The translations under genes and the position numbers were made by a program. A stretch of DNA of 64,000 nucleotides from Variovorax saccharolyticus (GTDB lineage Bacteria > Pseudomonadota > Gammaproteobacteria > Burkholderiales > Burkholderiaceae_C). Of this stretch, positions 56,188 through 64,000 are shown in pieces. A model generated the notes under the pieces. It saw only the letters and a program-made list of their open reading frames with translations, made no database searches and was not told the origin of the DNA. Position 1 is the stretch's first letter. Each line of letters begins with the position of its first letter. The stretch spans positions 806,001 through 870,000 of the forward strand of contig NZ_JASZYT010000001.1 in assembly GCF_030316765.1 (NCBI RefSeq), in the 5' to 3' direction.

Positions 56188-57723
56188 ATGCCCTCCGCCA
56201 CCGCCGCACCCCCCGCCTTGCCGCTCGATGCCGAAGGCATCCTCGCGCTCGCTGCGCGCTCGATGTTCCATCTGTTCTCCAGCATCAGCCAGGGCATGTT
56301 CCTGGTCGACCGGGGCGGGCGCATCGTGTGGGTCAACGAGGGCTACCGGCGTTTCCTGCCGGCGCTGGGCTTCTCGTCGATCGACCAGTTCCTCGGCCAT
56401 CGGGTCGAGGACGTCATTCCCAACACCCAGATGCGCCGCGTGCTCGACACCGGCGAGCCGATCCTGATCGACCTGCTGACCAACAAGGCCGGCACCTTCG
56501 TGGTCAGCCGGATCCCGCTGCGCGAGGAGCGCGAGGGCGATGCCGGCGCCACGCCGGGCGAGGTGATCGGCGCCATCGGCATCGTGCTCTTCGACCATCC
56601 CGAGACCACGCTGCAGCCGCTGATCAGCAAGTTCGCGCTGCTGCAGCGCGACCTCGACGACGCCCGGCGCGAGCTCGCGAGCCAGCGCGCCAATCCGCTC
56701 TACCAGCAGTCGGCCGACGGCCAGCGGCGCTCCAAGTACACCTTCGCGAGCTTCATCGGCAGCAGCCCGGCCGCGGTGGAGGTCAAGCGCCACGCACGGC
56801 GCGCGGCGCAGTCGTCGAGCCCGGTGCTGCTGCTCGGCGAGACCGGCACCGGCAAGGAACTGCTGGCCCACGCGATCCATGCCGCCTCGGCGCGGGCCGG
56901 CGGCATGTTCGTCAGCGTCAACATCGCGGCCGTGCCCGACACCTTGCTCGAGGCCGAGTTCTTCGGCGTCGCGCCCGGCGCCTTCACCGGCGCCGACCGC
57001 AAGGCGCGCGAGGGCAAGTTCAAGCTGGCCGACGGCGGCACGCTGTTCCTGGACGAGATCGGCGACATGCCGCTGGGCCTGCAGGCCAAGCTGCTGCGTG
57101 CGCTGCAGGAGGGCGAGATCGAGCCGCTGGGCTCCAACAAGCTGGTGCCCTTCGATGCCCGCGTGATCGCCGCCACTTCGCGCGACCTCGCGGCGCTGGT
57201 CAGGGAAGGGCGCTTTCGCGAAGACCTCTACTACCGCCTCAACGTGCTGCCGGTGCGCGTGCCGCCGCTGCGCGAGCGCCGCGCCGATATCCCGGCGCTG
57301 GTCGAGGTGCTGGGCGAGGACATGGCGCTGCGCAGCGGCGAGGCCCCGCCCGAACTCGCGCCCGACGCGCTGGCGCTGCTGGCGGCGCAGCACTGGCGCG
57401 GCAACATCCGGGAGCTGCGCAACGTGCTCGAGCAGGTGACCATGCGCAGCGACTCCCAGCGCATCGACGCCGCCCAGCTCGAGCGCATCCTGCGCGAGGC
57501 CGGGCAGGAGAAGATCGCCGCGCCCGAGCCGCTGCCGAGCGAGGCCGCCGATTCGGCCGAGGGTGCGGCGCTGCTGCGGCCGCTGGCGCAGCAGGTGGCC
57601 GAGCTCGAGCGGCGGGCGATCGCCGCCGCGATGGCCGCGACCGGCGGCAACAAGCTGGCGAGTTCGCGGCTGCTGGGCATCTCGCGCGCCACGCTCTACG
57701 AACGTCTGGAAAACCCTGAATAA
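56188..57723 (+). CDS. Sigma-54-dependent enhancer-binding regulator with PAS-like sensor
   Basis: A 511-residue transcription activator. Residues about 25-150 form a PAS-like sensor (SMFHLFSSISQGMFLVDRGG, RIVWVNEGYRRFLPALGF). The AAA+ domain (about 190-420) has Walker A GETGTGKE (217-224), the sigma-54 contact loop GAFTGA (264-269), Walker B GTLFLDEIGD (284-293) and RADIPALVEVL. The C-terminal Fis-type helix-turn-helix ends AATGGNKLASSRLLGISRAT. It therefore activates only sigma-54 promoters. One with the right spacing lies just downstream, before the Liv-type importer, with a long palindrome between. The ATG at 56188 was chosen over an upstream one 20 codons earlier. Confidence 0.93.
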   Translation: MPSATAAPPALPLDAEGILALAARSMFHLFSSISQGMFLVDRGGRIVWVNEGYRRFLPALGFSSIDQFLGHRVEDVIPNTQMRRVLDTGEPILIDLLTNKAGTFVVSRIPLREEREGDAGATPGEVIGAIGIVLFDHPETTLQPLISKFALLQRDLDDARRELASQRANPLYQQSADGQRRSKYTFASFIGSSPAAVEVKRHARRAAQSSSPVLLLGETGTGKELLAHAIHAASARAGGMFVSVNIAAVPDTLLEAEFFGVAPGAFTGADRKAREGKFKLADGGTLFLDEIGDMPLGLQAKLLRALQEGEIEPLGSNKLVPFDARVIAATSRDLAALVREGRFREDLYYRLNVLPVRVPPLRERRADIPALVEVLGEDMALRSGEAPPELAPDALALLAAQHWRGNIRELRNVLEQVTMRSDSQRIDAAQLERILREAGQEKIAAPEPLPSEAADSAEGAALLRPLAQQVAELERRAIAAAMAATGGNKLASSRLLGISRATLYERLENPE

Positions 57724-57738
57724 AAAATATGCAACTGA

Positions 57739-57773
57739 CTGAAACTTGGACAGTTCGTCTGTCCTGATTTCAG
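57739..57773. promoter_or_regulatory. Palindromic upstream activating site candidate for the sigma-54 regulator
   Basis: A 35-bp, two-tier palindrome: CTGAAA, 3 nt, GGACAG, 5 nt, CTGTCC, 3 nt, TTTCAG. Its centre (57756) is about 97 bp before the predicted start of the importer promoter, a normal distance for an enhancer-binding protein site. It also lies just behind the regulator stop and is followed by TCTTTCC. It could therefore in part act as a weak terminator hairpin; the two readings are not exclusive. Confidence 0.6.
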
Positions 57774-57826
57774 TCTTTCCAGAGCGAAACCAAGGGAAAG
57801 TCCTTTGTTTTCAAGGCGATGGAGGC

Positions 57827-57842
57827 TGGCACGAACTGTGCA
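57827..57842 (+). promoter_or_regulatory. Sigma-54 promoter of the Liv-type importer operon
   Basis: TGGCACG, 4 nt, GTGCA matches the -24/-12 consensus TGGCACG-N4-TTGCA with one mismatch, and the invariant GG-N10-GC spacing is exact (GG 57828-57829, GC 57840-57841). The start would be near 57853, about 20 nt before the ATG, with ribosome binding site AGGAGA between. An enhancer-binding regulator is encoded immediately upstream. Confidence 0.75.
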
Positions 57843-57873
57843 ATATTCAGCCATCACCTTCAGGAGACAAAGA

Positions 57874-59064
57874 ATGCAACGTCGCTACCTCGTCGCGCTG
57901 GCCACCCTGGCCACCGCAGGTGCCCTGGCCCTCCCGGCCTGGGCCCAGTCCAACGAGATCAAGATCGCCCACATCTACAGCAAGACCGGTCCGCTGGAAG
58001 CCTACGGCAAGCAGACCCAGACCGGCTTCATGATGGGCCTGGACTACGCGACCGGCGGCACCATGACCGTCAACGGCAAGAAGATCGTCGTCATCGAGAA
58101 GGACGACCAGGGCAAGCCCGACCTCGGCAAGTCGCTGCTCGCCGCAGCCTACGCCGACGACAAGGCGGCGCTGGCGGTCGGCCCGACCTCTTCGGGCGTG
58201 GCGCTGGCGATGCTGCCGGTGGCCGAGGAATACAAGAAGATCCTGCTGGTCGAGCCCGCCGTGGCCGACTCGATCACCGGCGACAAGTGGAACAAGTACA
58301 TCTTCCGCACCGGCCGCAACAGCTCGCAGGACGCGATCTCGAACGCGGTCGCGGTCGACAAGGCCGGCGTCACGGTCGCCACGCTGGCGCAGGACAACGC
58401 CTTCGGCCGCGACGGCGTGAAGGCTTTCGGCAGCGCGCTGAAGAAGGCCAAGCTGGTCCATGAGGAATACCTGCCGCCGGCCACCACCGACTTCACCGCA
58501 GGTGCGCAGCGGTTGATCGACAAGCTCAAGGACCAGCCGGGCCGCAAGATCATCTGGATCGTGTGGGCCGGCGCCGGCAACCCCTTCAAGATCGTCGACC
58601 TCGACCTGAAGCGCTATGGCATCGAGATCGCGACCGGCGGCAACATCCTGCCCGCCATGGCGGCCTACAAGGCGCTGCCGGGCATGGAAGGCGCGGCCTA
58701 CTACTACTTCGGCATTCCGAAGAACCCGGTCAACGAGGCCATGGTCTCGATGCACTACAAGGAATTCAAGACGCCGCCGGACTTCTTCACGGCCGGCGGC
58801 TTCTCGGCCGCGATGGCGATCGTGACCGCGCTCAAGAAGACCGGCGGCGACACCAGCACCAACAAGCTGATCACGGCCATGGAAGGCATGAGCTTCGACA
58901 CGCCCAAGGGCAAGATGACCTTCCGCAAGGAAGACCACCAGGCGATGCAGTCGATGTACCACTTCAAGATCAAGGTCGATCCCGCGTTCGCGTGGGGCGT
59001 GCCGGAGCTGGTGCACGAGATCAAGCCTGAAGAGATGGACATCCCCATCAAGAATAAACGCTGA
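57874..59064 (+). CDS. ABC transporter substrate-binding protein (branched-chain amino acid type)
   Basis: A 396-residue periplasmic binding protein of the LivJ-like (type I fold) family. The signal peptide is MQRRYLVALATLATAGALAL, cut after PAWA; the mature part starts EIKIAHIYSKTGPLEAYGKQ. Other typical parts are AVGPTSSGVALAMLPVAEEY and FRTGRNSSQDAISNAVAVDK. This family carries amino acids but also aromatic acids, amides and other small organics; the ligand cannot be told. It is the first gene after the sigma-54 promoter, and AGGAGA is about 7 nt before the ATG. A hairpin-rich stretch separates it from the ATPase genes. Confidence 0.93.
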   Translation: MQRRYLVALATLATAGALALPAWAQSNEIKIAHIYSKTGPLEAYGKQTQTGFMMGLDYATGGTMTVNGKKIVVIEKDDQGKPDLGKSLLAAAYADDKAALAVGPTSSGVALAMLPVAEEYKKILLVEPAVADSITGDKWNKYIFRTGRNSSQDAISNAVAVDKAGVTVATLAQDNAFGRDGVKAFGSALKKAKLVHEEYLPPATTDFTAGAQRLIDKLKDQPGRKIIWIVWAGAGNPFKIVDLDLKRYGIEIATGGNILPAMAAYKALPGMEGAAYYYFGIPKNPVNEAMVSMHYKEFKTPPDFFTAGGFSAAMAIVTALKKTGGDTSTNKLITAMEGMSFDTPKGKMTFRKEDHQAMQSMYHFKIKVDPAFAWGVPELVHEIKPEEMDIPIKNKR

Positions 59065-59198: not shown

Positions 59199-59966
59199 AT
59201 GCTTGAAACTACTGATCTCACCATCCGCTTCGGCGGACACGTGGCGGTGAATGCTGTCTCCTGCGCGTTCGCGCCGGGCACGCTCACTGCGATCGTCGGT
59301 CCCAACGGGGCCGGCAAGACCACGTACTTCAACCTGATCTCGGGGCAGCTCAAGGCCTCCGCGGGCACGGTGTCGCTCGACGGCCAACTGCTGTCGGGAC
59401 TGCCGGCCTCGGCGCGCACGCGGGCCGGGCTCGGCCGGGCGTTCCAGCTGACCAACCTGTTCCCGAACCTCTCGGTGCTCGAGAACGTGCGGCTCGCGGT
59501 GCAGGCGACGCGCGAGGGCGCGCATCGGCGCGGCCTCAACCTGTGGAGCATCTGGAGCGACCACCGCGCCTTGACCGAGCGCGCCGACCAGATCCTGGCC
59601 GACGTGGCGCTGAAGTCGAAGGAGCACGCGACCGTGGCTAGCCTGCCGCACGGCGACCAACGCAAGCTCGAGGTGGCGCTGCTGATGGCGCTCGAACCCA
59701 AGGTCTTCATGTTCGACGAACCGACGGCGGGCATGAACGCGGCCGAGGCACCGGTGATCCTCGACCTGATCCGCAAGCTCAAGCAGGACAGGAGCAAGAC
59801 CATCCTGCTGGTCGAGCACAAGATGGACGTGGTGCGCGAACTCGCCGACCGCATCATCGTGCTGCACAACGGGCAACTGGTGGCCGACGGCGAGCCGGCC
59901 GAGGTGATCGCCTCGCCGATCGTCCAGGAAGCCTATCTGGGTGTTGCGAAGGAGGCTGCCGCATGA
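59199..59966 (+). CDS. livG: ABC transporter ATP-binding protein, LivG type
   Basis: A 255-residue ATPase. It has Walker A GPNGAGKTTYFNLISGQL, the Q-loop LGRAFQLTNLFPNLSVLENV, signature SLPHGDQRKLEVALLMALEP, Walker B KVFMFDEPTAGMN and switch histidine LLVEHKMDVV. The long loop (RREGAHRRGLNLWS-like EGAHRRGLNLWSIWSDHRAL) is typical of LivG. The start was placed at the ATG beginning MLETTDLTIRFGG; a longer frame runs through the hairpin element. It overlaps livF by 4 nt. Confidence 0.93.
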   Translation: MLETTDLTIRFGGHVAVNAVSCAFAPGTLTAIVGPNGAGKTTYFNLISGQLKASAGTVSLDGQLLSGLPASARTRAGLGRAFQLTNLFPNLSVLENVRLAVQATREGAHRRGLNLWSIWSDHRALTERADQILADVALKSKEHATVASLPHGDQRKLEVALLMALEPKVFMFDEPTAGMNAAEAPVILDLIRKLKQDRSKTILLVEHKMDVVRELADRIIVLHNGQLVADGEPAEVIASPIVQEAYLGVAKEAAA

Positions 59967-60697
59967 GCCGCATGACCACAAATCTTCTCGAGATGAAGGG
60001 CGTGCATACGCACATCGGCGCCTACCACATCCTGCACGGCGTCGACCTCGCCGTGCCGCGGGGCCAGCTCACGATGCTGCTGGGCCGCAACGGCGCCGGC
60101 AAGACCACCACGCTGCGCACGCTGATGGGCCTTTGGCATGCCTCGCAGGGCAGCGTGCGCTTCGGCGACACCGACATCACGGCGATGCGCACGCCGCAGA
60201 TCGCCGAGCTCGGCATCGCCTACGTGCCCGAGAACATGGGCATCTTCTCGGACCTCACGGTCAAGGAGAACATGCTGCTGGCGGCCCGCAAGGCGAAGAA
60301 CGCCGAGCAGATGGACGACGCACGCCTGAAGTGGATCTTCCAGCTGTTCCCGGCGGTCGAGAAGTTCTGGAACCACCCGGCGGGCAAGCTCTCGGGCGGA
60401 CAGAAGCAGATGCTTGCGGTGTCGCGCGCGATCGTCGAGCCGCGCGAACTGCTGGTCGTCGACGAGCCCAGCAAGGGCCTGGCGCCGGCCATCATCAACA
60501 ACATGATCGATGCCTTCGGCGAACTCAAGCGCAGCGGCGTGACGATCCTGCTGGTCGAGCAGAACATCAGCTTCGCCCAGCGCCTGGGCGACCAGGTGGC
60601 CGTGATGGACAACGGCCGCGTCGTGCACAGCGGCAGCATGGCCGCGTTCTCGGCCGACGAACAACTGCAGCAATCGCTGCTCGGACTGGCGCTATGA
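59963..60697 (+). CDS. livF: ABC transporter ATP-binding protein, LivF type
   Basis: A 244-residue ATPase, partner of the preceding one. It has Walker A LLGRNGAGKTTTLRTLMGLW, signature GKLSGGQKQMLAVSRAIVEP, Walker B LLVVDEPSKGLAP and the LVEQNISFAQRLGDQVAVMD switch region. SKGLAP is the LivF hallmark. It overlaps both neighbours by 4 nt, so the ATPases and permeases are translated as one coupled set. Confidence 0.94.
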   Translation: MSRMTTNLLEMKGVHTHIGAYHILHGVDLAVPRGQLTMLLGRNGAGKTTTLRTLMGLWHASQGSVRFGDTDITAMRTPQIAELGIAYVPENMGIFSDLTVKENMLLAARKAKNAEQMDDARLKWIFQLFPAVEKFWNHPAGKLSGGQKQMLAVSRAIVEPRELLVVDEPSKGLAPAIINNMIDAFGELKRSGVTILLVEQNISFAQRLGDQVAVMDNGRVVHSGSMAAFSADEQLQQSLLGLAL

Positions 60698-61677
60698 AGA
60701 ACCTCGACTTCGACTGGAAGCCGCTCGCGCTGGTGCCGGTGCTGGCACTCATCGCGCTGCCGCTCACGGGCTCGGTCTCGACCTGGCTCACGCTGACGGT
60801 GGCCGGCCTCGCGATGGGCATGATCATCTTCATCATCGCCTCGGGGCTGACGCTGATTTTCGGCCTGATGGACGTGCTCAACTTCGGCCACGGCGTGTTC
60901 ATCGCGCTCGGCGCCTTCGTCGCCAGCAGCGTGCTCGGCCTGATGGGCGACTGGACCGGCTCGGGTGAGCTGTGGCGCAATCTCGTGGCCGTGTTCCCCG
61001 CGATGCTGGTCGCCATGCTGGTGGCTGGCGCGGTCGGCCTGGCCTTCGAGCGCTTCATCGTGCGGCCCGTGTACGGCCAGCACCTGAAGCAGATCCTGAT
61101 CACGATGGGCGGCATGATCATCGGCGAGGAGCTGATCAAGGTGATCTGGGGGCCGGCGCAGATCCCGCTGCCGCTGCCCGAAGCCCTGCGCGGCTCGCTG
61201 CTGGTGGGCGACGCGGCGATCAGCAAGTACCGCATCCTCGCGGTCGTGATCGGCGCCTTCGTCTTCGGCCTGCTGGCCTGGACCCTGGGCCGCACCAAGA
61301 TCGGCCTCCTGATCCGCGCCGGCGTGCAGGACCGCGAGATGGTCGAGTCGCTGGGCTACCGCATCGGCCGGCTGTTCGTCGGCGTCTTCGTGGTCGGCAG
61401 CGCGCTGGCCGGCCTGGGCGGCGTGATGTGGGGGCTGTTCCAGCAGAACCTGATCCCGCAGATGGGCGCGCAGGTCAACGTGCTGATCTTCATCGTGATC
61501 ATCATCGGCGGGCTCGGCTCGACCGCCGGCGCGCTGATCGGCGCCTTGCTGGTCGGCCTCATGACCAACTACATCGGCTTCATCGTGCCGACGCTGACGC
61601 AGTTCGCGAGCATCTTCCTGATGGTGGCGGTGCTGCTGTGGCGTCCGCAGGGCGTCTACCCCGTGGCCAATCGTTGA
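60694..61677 (+). CDS. livH: Branched-chain-type ABC transporter permease, LivH type
   Basis: A 327-residue permease with about eight helices. The family motifs GLTLIFGLMDVLNFGHGVFI near residue 50 and GYRIGRLFVGVFVVGSALAG, then IIIGGLGSTAGALIGALLVG in the second half, identify LivH. It forms the translocation path with LivM. ATGA overlaps join it to livF. Confidence 0.94.
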   Translation: MKNLDFDWKPLALVPVLALIALPLTGSVSTWLTLTVAGLAMGMIIFIIASGLTLIFGLMDVLNFGHGVFIALGAFVASSVLGLMGDWTGSGELWRNLVAVFPAMLVAMLVAGAVGLAFERFIVRPVYGQHLKQILITMGGMIIGEELIKVIWGPAQIPLPLPEALRGSLLVGDAAISKYRILAVVIGAFVFGLLAWTLGRTKIGLLIRAGVQDREMVESLGYRIGRLFVGVFVVGSALAGLGGVMWGLFQQNLIPQMGAQVNVLIFIVIIIGGLGSTAGALIGALLVGLMTNYIGFIVPTLTQFASIFLMVAVLLWRPQGVYPVANR

Positions 61678-61687
61678 AGAGAAACCC

Positions 61688-62752
61688 ATGCTGTCCCGAC
61701 TTCTTTCCAACGACCTGCCGCGCAGCCGCCTGCTGGCCTTGCTGCTCGCAGCCCTGGTGCTGGCGCTGGCCTTCGCACCCTTCCTGTTCCCGGGCGTCAA
61801 GGCGCTCAGCGTGGCGGCCAAGATCCTGGTCTTCATCGTGCTGGTCGCGAGCTTCGACCTGCTGCTGGGCTACACCGGCATCGTGAGCTTCGCGCACACG
61901 ATGTTCTTCGGCATCGGCGCCTACGGCATCGCGATCTCGGCCAGCCGCCTGGGCGCCAACTGGGGCGCGGTGGCGGTCGGCCTCGGCGCCGCGCTGGCGA
62001 TCTCGCTGGTGCTGTCGCTCGCGATCGGCCTGTTCTCGCTGCGCGTGCGGGCGATCTTCTTCGCCATGATCACGCTGGCCGTGGCCTCGGCCTTCCAGAC
62101 CCTGGCCTCGCAGCTGTCGGACTTCACGGGCGGCGAGGATGGCCTGACCTTCAAGCTGCCGGAGCTGATCTCGCCAAGCTTCGAGTTCGCGGAAGAACCC
62201 TTCCTCGGCGTCTCGCTCGATGGCCGGCTGCTGTGCTACTACCTGCTCTTCGTCGCCACGGTGCTGCTGGTGCTGGCGCTGCTTCGGATCGTGAATTCGC
62301 CCTTCGGCCGCGTGCTGCAGGCGATCCGCGAGAACGAGTTCCGCGCCGAGGCGATCGGCTACCGCGTGGTGGTCTATCGGACCACGGCCTCGGTGCTGTC
62401 GGCGCTGTTCGCGACGCTGGCCGGCGCGATGCTCGCCATCTGGCTGCGCTACAACGGACCCGACACCTCGCTCAGCTTCGAGATCATGGTCGACGTGCTG
62501 CTGATCGTGGTGATCGGCGGCATGGGCACGATCTATGGCGCGGTGGTCGGCGCGGTGCTGTTCGTGATCGCGCAGAGCTACCTGCAGGATCTGCTGCGCA
62601 TCGGCAGCGAGGCGGCGAGCGGCATTGGCTGGCTCGCGGCGCTGCTGTCGCCCGACCGCTGGCTGCTGTGGTTGGGCGTGCTGTTCGTTCTGTCCGTCTA
62701 CTACTTTCCCACAGGCATCGTCGGCCGCCTGCGCGCGAGGGCCATGAAATGA
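61688..62752 (+). CDS. livM: Branched-chain-type ABC transporter permease, LivM type
   Basis: A 354-residue permease. Its typical LivM segments are LLLGYTGIVSFAHTMFFGIG, RVRAIFFAMITLAVASAFQT, RENEFRAEAIGYRVVVYRTT and GGMGTIYGAVVGAVLF. It lies 10 nt behind livH and overlaps the alpha/beta hydrolase gene by 4 nt. The C-terminus is short and basic (GRLRARAMK). Confidence 0.94.
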   Translation: MLSRLLSNDLPRSRLLALLLAALVLALAFAPFLFPGVKALSVAAKILVFIVLVASFDLLLGYTGIVSFAHTMFFGIGAYGIAISASRLGANWGAVAVGLGAALAISLVLSLAIGLFSLRVRAIFFAMITLAVASAFQTLASQLSDFTGGEDGLTFKLPELISPSFEFAEEPFLGVSLDGRLLCYYLLFVATVLLVLALLRIVNSPFGRVLQAIRENEFRAEAIGYRVVVYRTTASVLSALFATLAGAMLAIWLRYNGPDTSLSFEIMVDVLLIVVIGGMGTIYGAVVGAVLFVIAQSYLQDLLRIGSEAASGIGWLAALLSPDRWLLWLGVLFVLSVYYFPTGIVGRLRARAMK

Positions 62753-63624
62753 ACGCTCCAAGCTCGAACTACCTTCAGATCGCCGGCCGCGAGGTCCACT
62801 GGCTCGACTGGGGCCCGCACGATGGCCCGGTGGTGGTGGCCTGGCACGGCCTCGCGCGCACCTGCCGCGACATGGACGAGCTGGCCCGGCACTTCGCCGA
62901 GCGCGGCTTCCGCGTGATCTGCCCCGACACTATCGGCCGTGGACTGAGCCAGTGGAGCCCGGCGCCGGACGAGGAGTACCAGCTGTCCTTCTACGGCCGG
63001 CTGGCGCTCGGACTGTTCGACGCGCTGAAGCTCAGGCGCGTCCACTGGATCGGCACCTCGATGGGCGGCGCGATCGGCATGGTCTGCGCGTCGGGCCTGC
63101 TCGAGCCGACGATGAAGCCGCGCATCGCGAGCCTGGTGCTCAACGACAACGCGCCGCAGATCGCGGCGGCAGCGGTCGAGCGCATCCGTTCCTATGCCGG
63201 CCAGCCGCCGGCCTTCGACACGGTGGTCGAGCTGGAGCAGTTCTTCCGCACGGTCTACAAGCCCTACGGCTGGCTCAGCGACGCGCAGTGGCGCCGCCTG
63301 ACCGAGAGCTCGACCCGGCGCCTGCCCGACGGCCGCGTGACGCCGCACTACGACCCGGCGATGGTGCGGCAGTTCGAAGCCCATCCGGACGACTATCTGG
63401 TGTGGCAGCACTACGACGCGATCGAGGCGCCGGTCTTGTGCCTGCGCGGCGTCGACTCCGACCTGGTGCTGCCCGAGACCCTGGCCGAGATGCGCAGCCG
63501 CGGCCCCGGTGCCGCCGGCCGCCTGCAGATCATCGAGGTGCCGGGCTGCGGCCACGCGCCGGCGCTCAACGTGCCCGGCCATCTGGAGCCCGTTGAGGCC
63601 TTCGTGCGCGCTGCCGGCACGTGA
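62749..63624 (+). CDS. Alpha/beta-fold hydrolase coupled to the importer operon
   Basis: A 291-residue cytoplasmic hydrolase without signal peptide. It shows the oxyanion region VVAWHGLARTCRDMDELARH, the nucleophile elbow HWIGTSMGGAIGM (serine), a probable acid in LRGVDSDLVLPETL, and the histidine in EVPGCGHAPALNVPGH. The fold resembles esterases, lactonases and meta-cleavage hydrolases; the exact reaction is not predictable. Its ATG overlaps the livM stop by 4 nt, so it is almost surely part of the importer transcript. It probably acts on the imported compound or an early product. Confidence 0.9.
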   Translation: MNAPSSNYLQIAGREVHWLDWGPHDGPVVVAWHGLARTCRDMDELARHFAERGFRVICPDTIGRGLSQWSPAPDEEYQLSFYGRLALGLFDALKLRRVHWIGTSMGGAIGMVCASGLLEPTMKPRIASLVLNDNAPQIAAAAVERIRSYAGQPPAFDTVVELEQFFRTVYKPYGWLSDAQWRRLTESSTRRLPDGRVTPHYDPAMVRQFEAHPDDYLVWQHYDAIEAPVLCLRGVDSDLVLPETLAEMRSRGPGAAGRLQIIEVPGCGHAPALNVPGHLEPVEAFVRAAGT

Positions 63625-63674
63625 AACGCGGCGGGCAGACAATGGGCCCGCTGATTCACTCGGAGACTTCATCC

Positions 63675-64000
63675 ATGGCGCTTTCGTTCTACGACATCTC
63701 GGTCCCGGTATTCGTCCGCGGACTTGGTCAACTCTCGCATGTGCTCGACAAGGGACTGGCCCATGCGCAGGCCGCGGGCATCGATCCGGCCGATCTTGTC
63801 ATCGCGCGCCTGGCGCCCGACATGTTCACGCTGGCCGGCCAGGTGCAGAGCGCCAGCGATGCATCCAAGCTCGGCACCGCCCGCATCGCCGGCATCACGG
63901 CGCCGAGCTTTCCCGACACCGAGACCACCTACGCCGAGCTGCAGGCACGGGTCGCGAAGACGATCGAATTCCTCAACGGCGTCGACCGTGCGGGCATCGA
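63675..64000 (+). CDS. DUF1993 family protein (partial at 3' end)
   Basis: The frame starts MALSFYDISVPVFVRGLGQL and continues HVLDKGLAHAQAAGIDP, LAPDMFTLAGQVQSASDASK and ARIAGITAPSFPDTETTYAE. This matches DUF1993 proteins, four-helix-bundle relatives of DinB. About 109 of the usual ~165 residues are visible before the window ends. GGAG lies 10 nt before the ATG. It follows the hydrolase by 50 nt without a clear terminator, so it may or may not share that transcript. Function unknown. Confidence 0.85.
   Translation, partial: MALSFYDISVPVFVRGLGQLSHVLDKGLAHAQAAGIDPADLVIARLAPDMFTLAGQVQSASDASKLGTARIAGITAPSFPDTETTYAELQARVAKTIEFLNGVDRAGI

Follow-up and report, generated by a model that had tools for sequence, protein, structure and literature searches.

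A conserved sigma-54-type enhancer-promoter between an HbcR-like activator and a Liv-type importer, with a likely role in the uptake of PHB breakdown products

The stretch of DNA analysed here (the window: 64,000 nt of Variovorax saccharolyticus, contig NZ_JASZYT010000001.1, positions 806,001 to 870,000) carries the gene of a sigma-54 activator followed on the same strand by the genes of an ABC importer. The activator (56188..57723, + strand) matches Pfam PAS_4, Sigma54_activat (221 bits) and HTH_8. Its AAA+ domain, its GAFTGA motif, which the earlier note had reported and which is readable in the translation, and its C-terminal Fis-type HTH mark it as an enhancer-binding protein, and the single PAS domain completes an architecture that we call HbcR-like for reasons given below. 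The genes that follow, all on the + strand and presumably co-transcribed, encode a periplasmic binding protein (Peripla_BP_6; 57874..59064; relatives PDB 3n0x and 3nnd), a LivG-type ATPase (59199..59966), a LivF-type ATPase (59963..60697), a LivH-type permease (60763..61677) and a LivM-type permease (61688..62752). Then come an alpha/beta hydrolase (62749..63624), often conserved in the operon and, as a guess, a candidate oligomer hydrolase, and a DUF1993 protein (63669..63998; domain match) that runs off the window; in many same-genus operons read that far, a DUF1993 protein follows the hydrolase as well. One orthologous operon holds a second, different Peripla_BP_6 binding protein before the hydrolase (L078:17130-18290).

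The family resemblance of the importer is general. Against curated Liv and urea models the binding protein scores 65 of 477 and 48 of 493 bits, and LivG (197/362 bits), LivF (189/441), LivH (70/379) and LivM (89/366) are likewise all under the cut-off; as a Liv branched-chain amino acid importer, the system reaches the cut-off of no subfamily or equivalog model shown (Liv, Urt).

Between the activator and the importer genes lie the elements that had been described from the letters alone, each of them found where claimed: a 35-bp two-tier palindrome (57739-57773; CTGAAA-ctt-GGACAG-ttcgt-CTGTCC-tga-TTTCAG; dyad 57756), a sigma-54 -24/-12 element with exact GG-N10-GC spacing (TGGCACGAACTGTGCA; 57827..57842, + strand; GG 57828-57829, GC 57840-57841) and the importer ATG (57874, + strand) behind AGGAGA, about 20 nt past the expected transcription start. 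This start is predicted at 57853 (+ strand), 12 nt past the C of GC, from the -24/-12 spacing. The palindrome extends from the left half of a candidate operator, O2 (TGACTGAAACTTGGACA; 57736..57752, + strand; 9/12 matches to TGTCTG-N5-CAGACA), to the right half of a second one, O3 (TGTCCTGATTTCAGTCT; 57760..57776, + strand; 8/12 matches), which lies 24 bp after O2 and is weakly palindromic in the window. The position of a further site, O1 (57717..57733, + strand), overlaps the activator stop codon 19 bp upstream of O2; it is degenerate in the window, where by eye about 6/12 positions are kept, and clear 17-bp sites stand there in several other genera. An IHF-like site position (TTTCAAGGCGATG; 57809..57821, + strand), with two mismatches to WATCAANNNNTTR, is located between the operators and the promoter. 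Sites of enhancer-binding proteins are commonly found about 80-150 bp upstream of the start, and the candidate operator centres of the window (57744 and 57768) lie about 109 and 85 bp before the predicted start.

The window promoter matches the near-consensus TGGCAC-N5-TTGCW at 11 of 12 positions, the pattern TGGCACGN5TGCW has a single match in the window against 0.08 expected, and the genome holds one rpoN gene. Single elements do arise by chance at low rates: near-consensus -24/-12 matches number 7 in the genome and 13 in its reversed control. The probability that palindrome and -24/-12 match are both fortuitous is nevertheless negligible, as this is already contradicted by their conservation over many genera and their co-occurrence with the activator.

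At 85 of 86 loci the best GG-N10-GC element before the binding-protein gene scores 9-12 of 12 (68 loci score 11), with the proviso that these loci include many repeat reads of the same genomes; at a threshold of 9 they yield 53 distinct promoters, 43 from the same genus and 10 from elsewhere. The sole exception is a short contig (L209), on which no acceptable promoter is found (best score 6/12). Where both were correctly found in same-genus loci, the element starts 45-52 nt before the ATG. The gene order of the window recurs in Ramlibacter, Curvibacter, Hydrogenophaga, Paucibacter (with a 1.7 kb gap) and Quisquiliibacterium (without the hydrolase), and a Polaromonas contig ends inside the binding-protein gene. 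Five same-genus loci (L010, L015, L020, L022, L030) have about 270 to 700 bp of extra sequence between the activator stop codon and the operators; operators and promoter still stand together beside the importer in all five.

The promoter also tracks the activator. Activator matches at E<=1e-100 occur in 50 of 81 genomes, comprising 47/49 of the same genus (the window's included) and 3/32 others. Forty further importer loci were compared, namely 38 of the 41 from other genera (G104, G143 and G298 left out) and two paralogous places in the window's genome. Eleven of them have an activator no more than 3 kb upstream on the same strand, and 10 of these score at least 10/12, the miss being L277 with a score of 9; of the other 29, a score of at least 10 is reached by one, and this locus (L257) has an activator about 11 kb upstream and clear operators. 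Two others among the 29 (L275, L276), whose activators lie 3.9 and 5.2 kb upstream, have scores of 5 and 7. Seven of the 11 activator-bearing loci also have the hydrolase. Likewise, among 16 chosen genomes searched for the activator, the seven with it score 9-11 and the nine without it 4-8. All these co-occurrence counts ignore kinship among the genomes, and one locus (L266) is probably from the same genome as another (L068) and hence not independent. Judged by these comparisons, the promoter is conserved and follows the linked activator across genomes.

The operator calls for a different parsing from that of the earlier note, which had taken the palindrome as one 35-bp site. The symmetry itself is real: only 0.2% of 2000 dinucleotide shuffles attain the 12 complementary pairs of the best dyad found within 140 bp before the -24 box. 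In the window the inter-site arms are symmetric at 12/12 positions while O2 and O3 alone keep 3 and 2 of 6 pairs, and both facts speak for a single unit to which the activator, or a different regulator, would bind. In orthologues, the recurring element is a 17-bp palindrome, TGTCTG-N5-CAGACA, exact in TGTCTGAATTTCAGACA (L065) and TGTCTGCCGGGCAGACA (L066); in TGTCCGTAATCCGGACA (L266) and TGTATTAAATTAATACA (L064) both arms are changed and the palindrome is kept. In a MAFFT alignment of 40 same-genus promoters, picked for having O2 and aligned without using it, the strongest dyad is that of O2 (57744.0), with 0.69 of pairs complementary against a scan mean of 0.26; it is followed by 57809.5 (0.57) and, in third place, 57756.0 (0.56), the dyad of the 35-bp palindrome, with 57768.5 at 0.42. 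The 57756.0 value exceeds that of O3's own dyad (57768.0; 0.28, chance level), which again favours the single unit, but it falls below that of O2, and two copies of any palindrome are automatically symmetric about their midpoint, so the 35-bp symmetry is what two neighbouring sites would produce. Spacing argues in the same direction: the second copy begins 24 bp after the first, or, in some genera (L065, L265, L273), 34-35 bp after it. The added length is about one helical turn; it destroys the 35-bp unit and leaves the 17-bp operators intact, with O3 clearly palindromic. We consider a one-unit palindrome quite unlikely; on the aligned sequences, the element is better read as two neighbouring 17-bp candidate operators 24 bp apart, and of the two O2 is a firm palindrome. 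The symmetry seen earlier stands, and its reading as one unit is probably wrong.

The degree of conservation differs between the copies. Of the 43 distinct same-genus promoters, 40 have a site of at least 8/12 at the place of O2, -95 to -89 counted from the T of TGGCAC; base-shuffled versions average 0.8 such promoters and give 4 at most (200 rounds). Taken with the 85 of 86 promoters, this largely bears out the expectation that operator and -24/-12 boxes are conserved in loci keeping the regulator-importer pair. The three promoters lacking a site at the usual distance (L004, L005, L014) are those omitted from the MAFFT alignment; in L004 and L005 extra sequence seems, by eye, to part operator-like DNA from the promoter. 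O3 averages 7.2/12 in same-genus promoters, where its left half is kept along with a shifted CTGAA/TTCAG; it is clearly palindromic only outside the genus (e.g., L256, L273, L063). A third copy often stands 19 bp before O2 in orthologues. A dyad scan anchored on the -24 box, in which length differences of 1-2 bp were disallowed, gave no clear operator peak (best 0.42-0.46); disallowing these differences smeared the signal, and the MAFFT version resolved the operators.

None of 1000 dinucleotide shuffles attains the pair score of O2 and O3 in the window. For the first nine loci, p-values from shuffling are descriptive because the motif was defined on related sequences. In nine loci fetched after the motif had been formed, a set without L266, L277 and L279, the pair-spacing test gives p<=0.05 in six (L255, L256, L257, L265, L273, L293) and fails in three (L258, L259, L274); in L258 the 19/24 spacing is seemingly kept, by eye, with altered half-sites. 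L277 and L279, alphaproteobacterial loci with an activator, have no operator site above the listing threshold, and in L067 and in the second copy of the gene set in one genome (L200, G020) a sigma-54-like promoter is present with no recognised operator over threshold.

In the window's genome the core palindrome GGACAG-N5-CTGTCC, with at most one mismatch, occurs at 5 places (the window's alone exact) against 13 in the reversed control; being rarer than in the control, it makes no wider regulon visible by this search. The operator consensus with up to two mismatches was rejected as a regulon definer, as it is too loose: at least 83 genome places match it, against 37 in the control. Among these matches is a cluster of TGTCTGACCGTCAGACA-like repeats spread over about 800 bp (G000:C7:27414-28211). 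The same genome has nine strong sigma-54 activator matches, and NtrC sites are also palindromes of about 17 bp, which raises the question of whether a global activator such as NtrC reads the operators of what would be a nitrogen-starvation promoter. We regard this as very improbable: from genome to genome, operators and promoter go with the linked activator, the operator pair is absent at all 6 other strong -24/-12 matches of the genome, and the half-site TGTCTG differs from that of NtrC.

A bend site between enhancer and promoter is part of the classical sigma-54 layout. The IHF-like sequence WATCAANNNNTTR is found exactly in 22 of 43 distinct same-genus promoters, against 0.08 expected, starting at -18 (14 promoters) or -19 (8 promoters) relative to the -24 T; it is also exact in 6 of 19 promoters from other loci, against 0.05 expected, and in five of these six lies 17-20 nt before the T of TGGCAC. 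Given the two mismatches of the window's copy, bending there may rest on other sequence.

The relatives of the activator point to 3-hydroxybutyrate. A Pseudomonas activator (L070) finds its best match in the window's genome in the window activator, with 400 bits over residues 3-453 of 454, in a one-way search from the Pseudomonas protein; its next match there has 233 bits and starts at residue 150. The two proteins are 48% identical over 500 aligned positions. In L070 the activator is followed first by a permease-like protein, which has no NCBIfam match and looks GntP-like by eye, and then by 3-hydroxybutyrate dehydrogenase (375 bits against a cut-off of 258) and acetoacetate-CoA ligase (977 bits against 639), and from this context we infer that it is HbcR itself. 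As far as the available parts of the sources go, Pseudomonas HbcR can be activated by (R)-3-hydroxybutyrate (PMC10482368), a sigma-54 activator of bdhA is needed for growth on (R)-3-hydroxybutyrate (PMC13390443), and for PA2005 (HbcR), two residues of the PAS domain were the basis on which others gave it a role in autoinducer binding (PMC8694187). Devosia (L075) has a homologous activator before 3-hydroxybutyrate dehydrogenase (372 bits, cut-off 307) and Liv-type genes; the latter share 28-43% identity with those of the window, and the binding protein there has no match to the window's. Activator and binding protein are separated in L276 by a CoA-transferase-like gene, which stays below all cut-offs, and by a frame that looks MFS-like by eye. 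The eight genes scanned in the window operon include no 3-hydroxybutyrate dehydrogenase or ketone-body gene; as the linkage seen in L070 and L075 is thus absent from the window operon, the label HbcR-like, rather than HbcR, is used. The activator family is wider than the importer operon: activators 49-55% identical to the window's stand beside other genes in L055-L058 and L069, and around the activator of Delftia acidovorans (L061), which is 75% identical, 9 kb to each side contain no recognised importer gene.

An indication of the cargo comes from a gene that the window lacks. In L078, the frame that separates the binding-protein gene from that of LivG encodes an extracellular type-2 short-chain-length PHA depolymerase (416 bits; cut-off 280), and wherever the model (NF050059) was run on these frames they score 353-416 bits against that cut-off. 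Of the 47 same-genus genomes that have the binding-protein gene, 28 carry the depolymerase gene 200-354 bp behind it, and, conversely, 29 of the 34 same-genus depolymerase genes over the cut-off sit behind a binding-protein gene. The depolymerase gene is not found there in the window and in 18 other same-genus genomes, two of which (G001, G028) have contigs that end within 260 bp. Among the 40 further loci, five (L256, L259, L267, L268, L273; two of them without an activator) have a tblastn match to the L078 depolymerase behind the binding protein (50-71% identity). One genome carries a second copy of the whole set (L200; G020:C2:202433-211423): a divergent activator, the binding protein, the depolymerase, LivGFHM and the hydrolase. 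In L267 and L268, importer and PHA depolymerase occur with neither an activator nor a good sigma-54 promoter (scores 8 and 7), and perhaps serve the same function under other control.

With an extracellular PHA depolymerase inside the operon of so many relatives, the branched-chain amino acid cargo implied by the earlier importer label is probably wrong, and a PHB breakdown product is the more probable substrate; the gene neighbourhoods suggest that the importer takes up such products rather than amino acids. It is also conceivable that the switch works as described and the cargo is an amino acid, an amide or another organic acid, the depolymerase being an incidental neighbour. The general matches of the binding protein are indeed to branched-chain amino acid and urea families, and many relatives have the importer but lack both the depolymerase and the activator. 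Nonetheless, none of the Liv or urea models reaches its cut-off here, the depolymerase recurs at the same operon place across several genera and in both operon copies of one genome, and the activator family has the HbcR-type linkage; we therefore hold another cargo to be unlikely, if less so than the alternatives weighed above. PHB breakdown products remain the preferred cargo.

The window's own genome has no type-2 PHA depolymerase over the cut-off (best 53 bits), and its bearer would depend on fragments set free by other organisms or by a different enzyme. An activator tree covers three outgroups and 44 same-genus rows, 27 with and 17 without an adjacent depolymerase (G007, G012, G022, G028 and G036 not included); on it, presence of the gene needs three changes. 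The root of the tree is its midpoint, so the direction of gain or loss is not fixed by the counts; nevertheless, the clade of the window (G000, G023, G024), which is without the depolymerase, is nested inside a 14-row group (support 94/85) holding four rows with it, which makes loss of the depolymerase in the window's lineage likely.

These observations are compatible with the following sequence of events. PHB fragments outside the cell would be taken up by the Liv-type ABC importer, and the HbcR-like activator would sense 3-hydroxybutyrate or a related PHB breakdown product, probably by its PAS domain; the inducer could be a monomer, an oligomer or an acyl-CoA. Activator dimers would then bind 57736-57752 and 57760-57776 and assemble an AAA+ ring, and DNA bending, helped in relatives by the IHF-like site, would bring the ring into contact with sigma-54 polymerase on TGGCACGAACTGTGCA. 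Open complex formation would start transcription near 57853, raising the supply of importer and hydrolase, and the hydrolase could, at a guess, cut imported oligomers. On the strength of gene context and motifs, the locus is probably an inducible uptake operon for 3-hydroxybutyrate or short oligomers, switched by the HbcR-like activator via two operators and a sigma-54 promoter. A broader proposal can be put forward only tentatively, as somewhat short of an even bet: the Liv-type importer would be the missing PHB-product uptake system of Burkholderiales, switched in an HbcR-like manner through a phased enhancer of two to three operators and an IHF site, and the window's lineage would have kept importer and switch and lost the secreted depolymerase, turning from degrader to fragment scavenger.

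Extracellular PHB depolymerases have been much studied; to our knowledge, the entry of freed PHB monomers and oligomers into Gram-negative cells is poorly defined. Among the matches listed, the titles and opening abstract lines of openly licensed literature mention neither a Liv-type importer under sigma-54 control together with a PHA depolymerase nor a bacterial ABC importer for PHB monomers or oligomers; terms for such a locus were not found in a sigma-54 regulon comparison (PMC12316311), and the available part of PMC13373117 holds nothing bearing on a sigma-54-controlled Liv-type importer with a PHA depolymerase. The locus offers a specific candidate PHB-product importer, whose binding protein has solved homologues (3n0x, 3nnd), whose enhancer is defined and whose inducer is predicted. 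If the assignment is true, it corrects the 'branched-chain amino acid' label that general domain matching gives this binding-protein family. The genomes with and without the secreted enzyme also form a natural set for studying public-goods loss in bioplastic breakdown.

Set against known systems, the locus is likely a well-conserved enhancer-promoter of the sigma-54 type with a corrected operator and a new likely function, HbcR-like control as such being already known. The activator resembles HbcR (PA2005/PFLU2630), the RpoN-dependent regulator of (R)-3-hydroxybutyrate catabolism in Pseudomonas, in its single PAS domain, AAA+ domain and Fis-type HTH. In both the HbcR-type Pseudomonas locus and the window, GTCT-type palindromes stand upstream of a -24/-12-like element, with a spacing within the palindrome that differs, by eye, by one base. 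The Pseudomonas locus has one permease-like gene, a dehydrogenase and a ligase, whereas the window has a five-subunit ABC importer and a hydrolase, to which its relatives add the extracellular PHA depolymerase; enzymes of this type-2 short-chain-length class (NF050059) are thus found in the operon of relatives and are absent from the window's genome. Importers of the Liv/HAAT type, which handle branched-chain amino acids, amides or urea, share the subunit set and domains; they differ in that the window has a sigma-54 promoter beside a linked PAS activator and its relatives have a PHA depolymerase in the operon. Sensor kinases take part in some sigma-54 uptake switches, that of AauR/AatJQMP being one, whereas the activator of the window carries a PAS domain of its own. 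As described in the available part of the source, AauR/AatJQMP of Pseudomonas is a sigma-54-controlled ABC system for glutamate uptake (PMC7962211): it resembles the window in linking a sigma-54 activator to an ABC importer and differs in the family to which the importer belongs.
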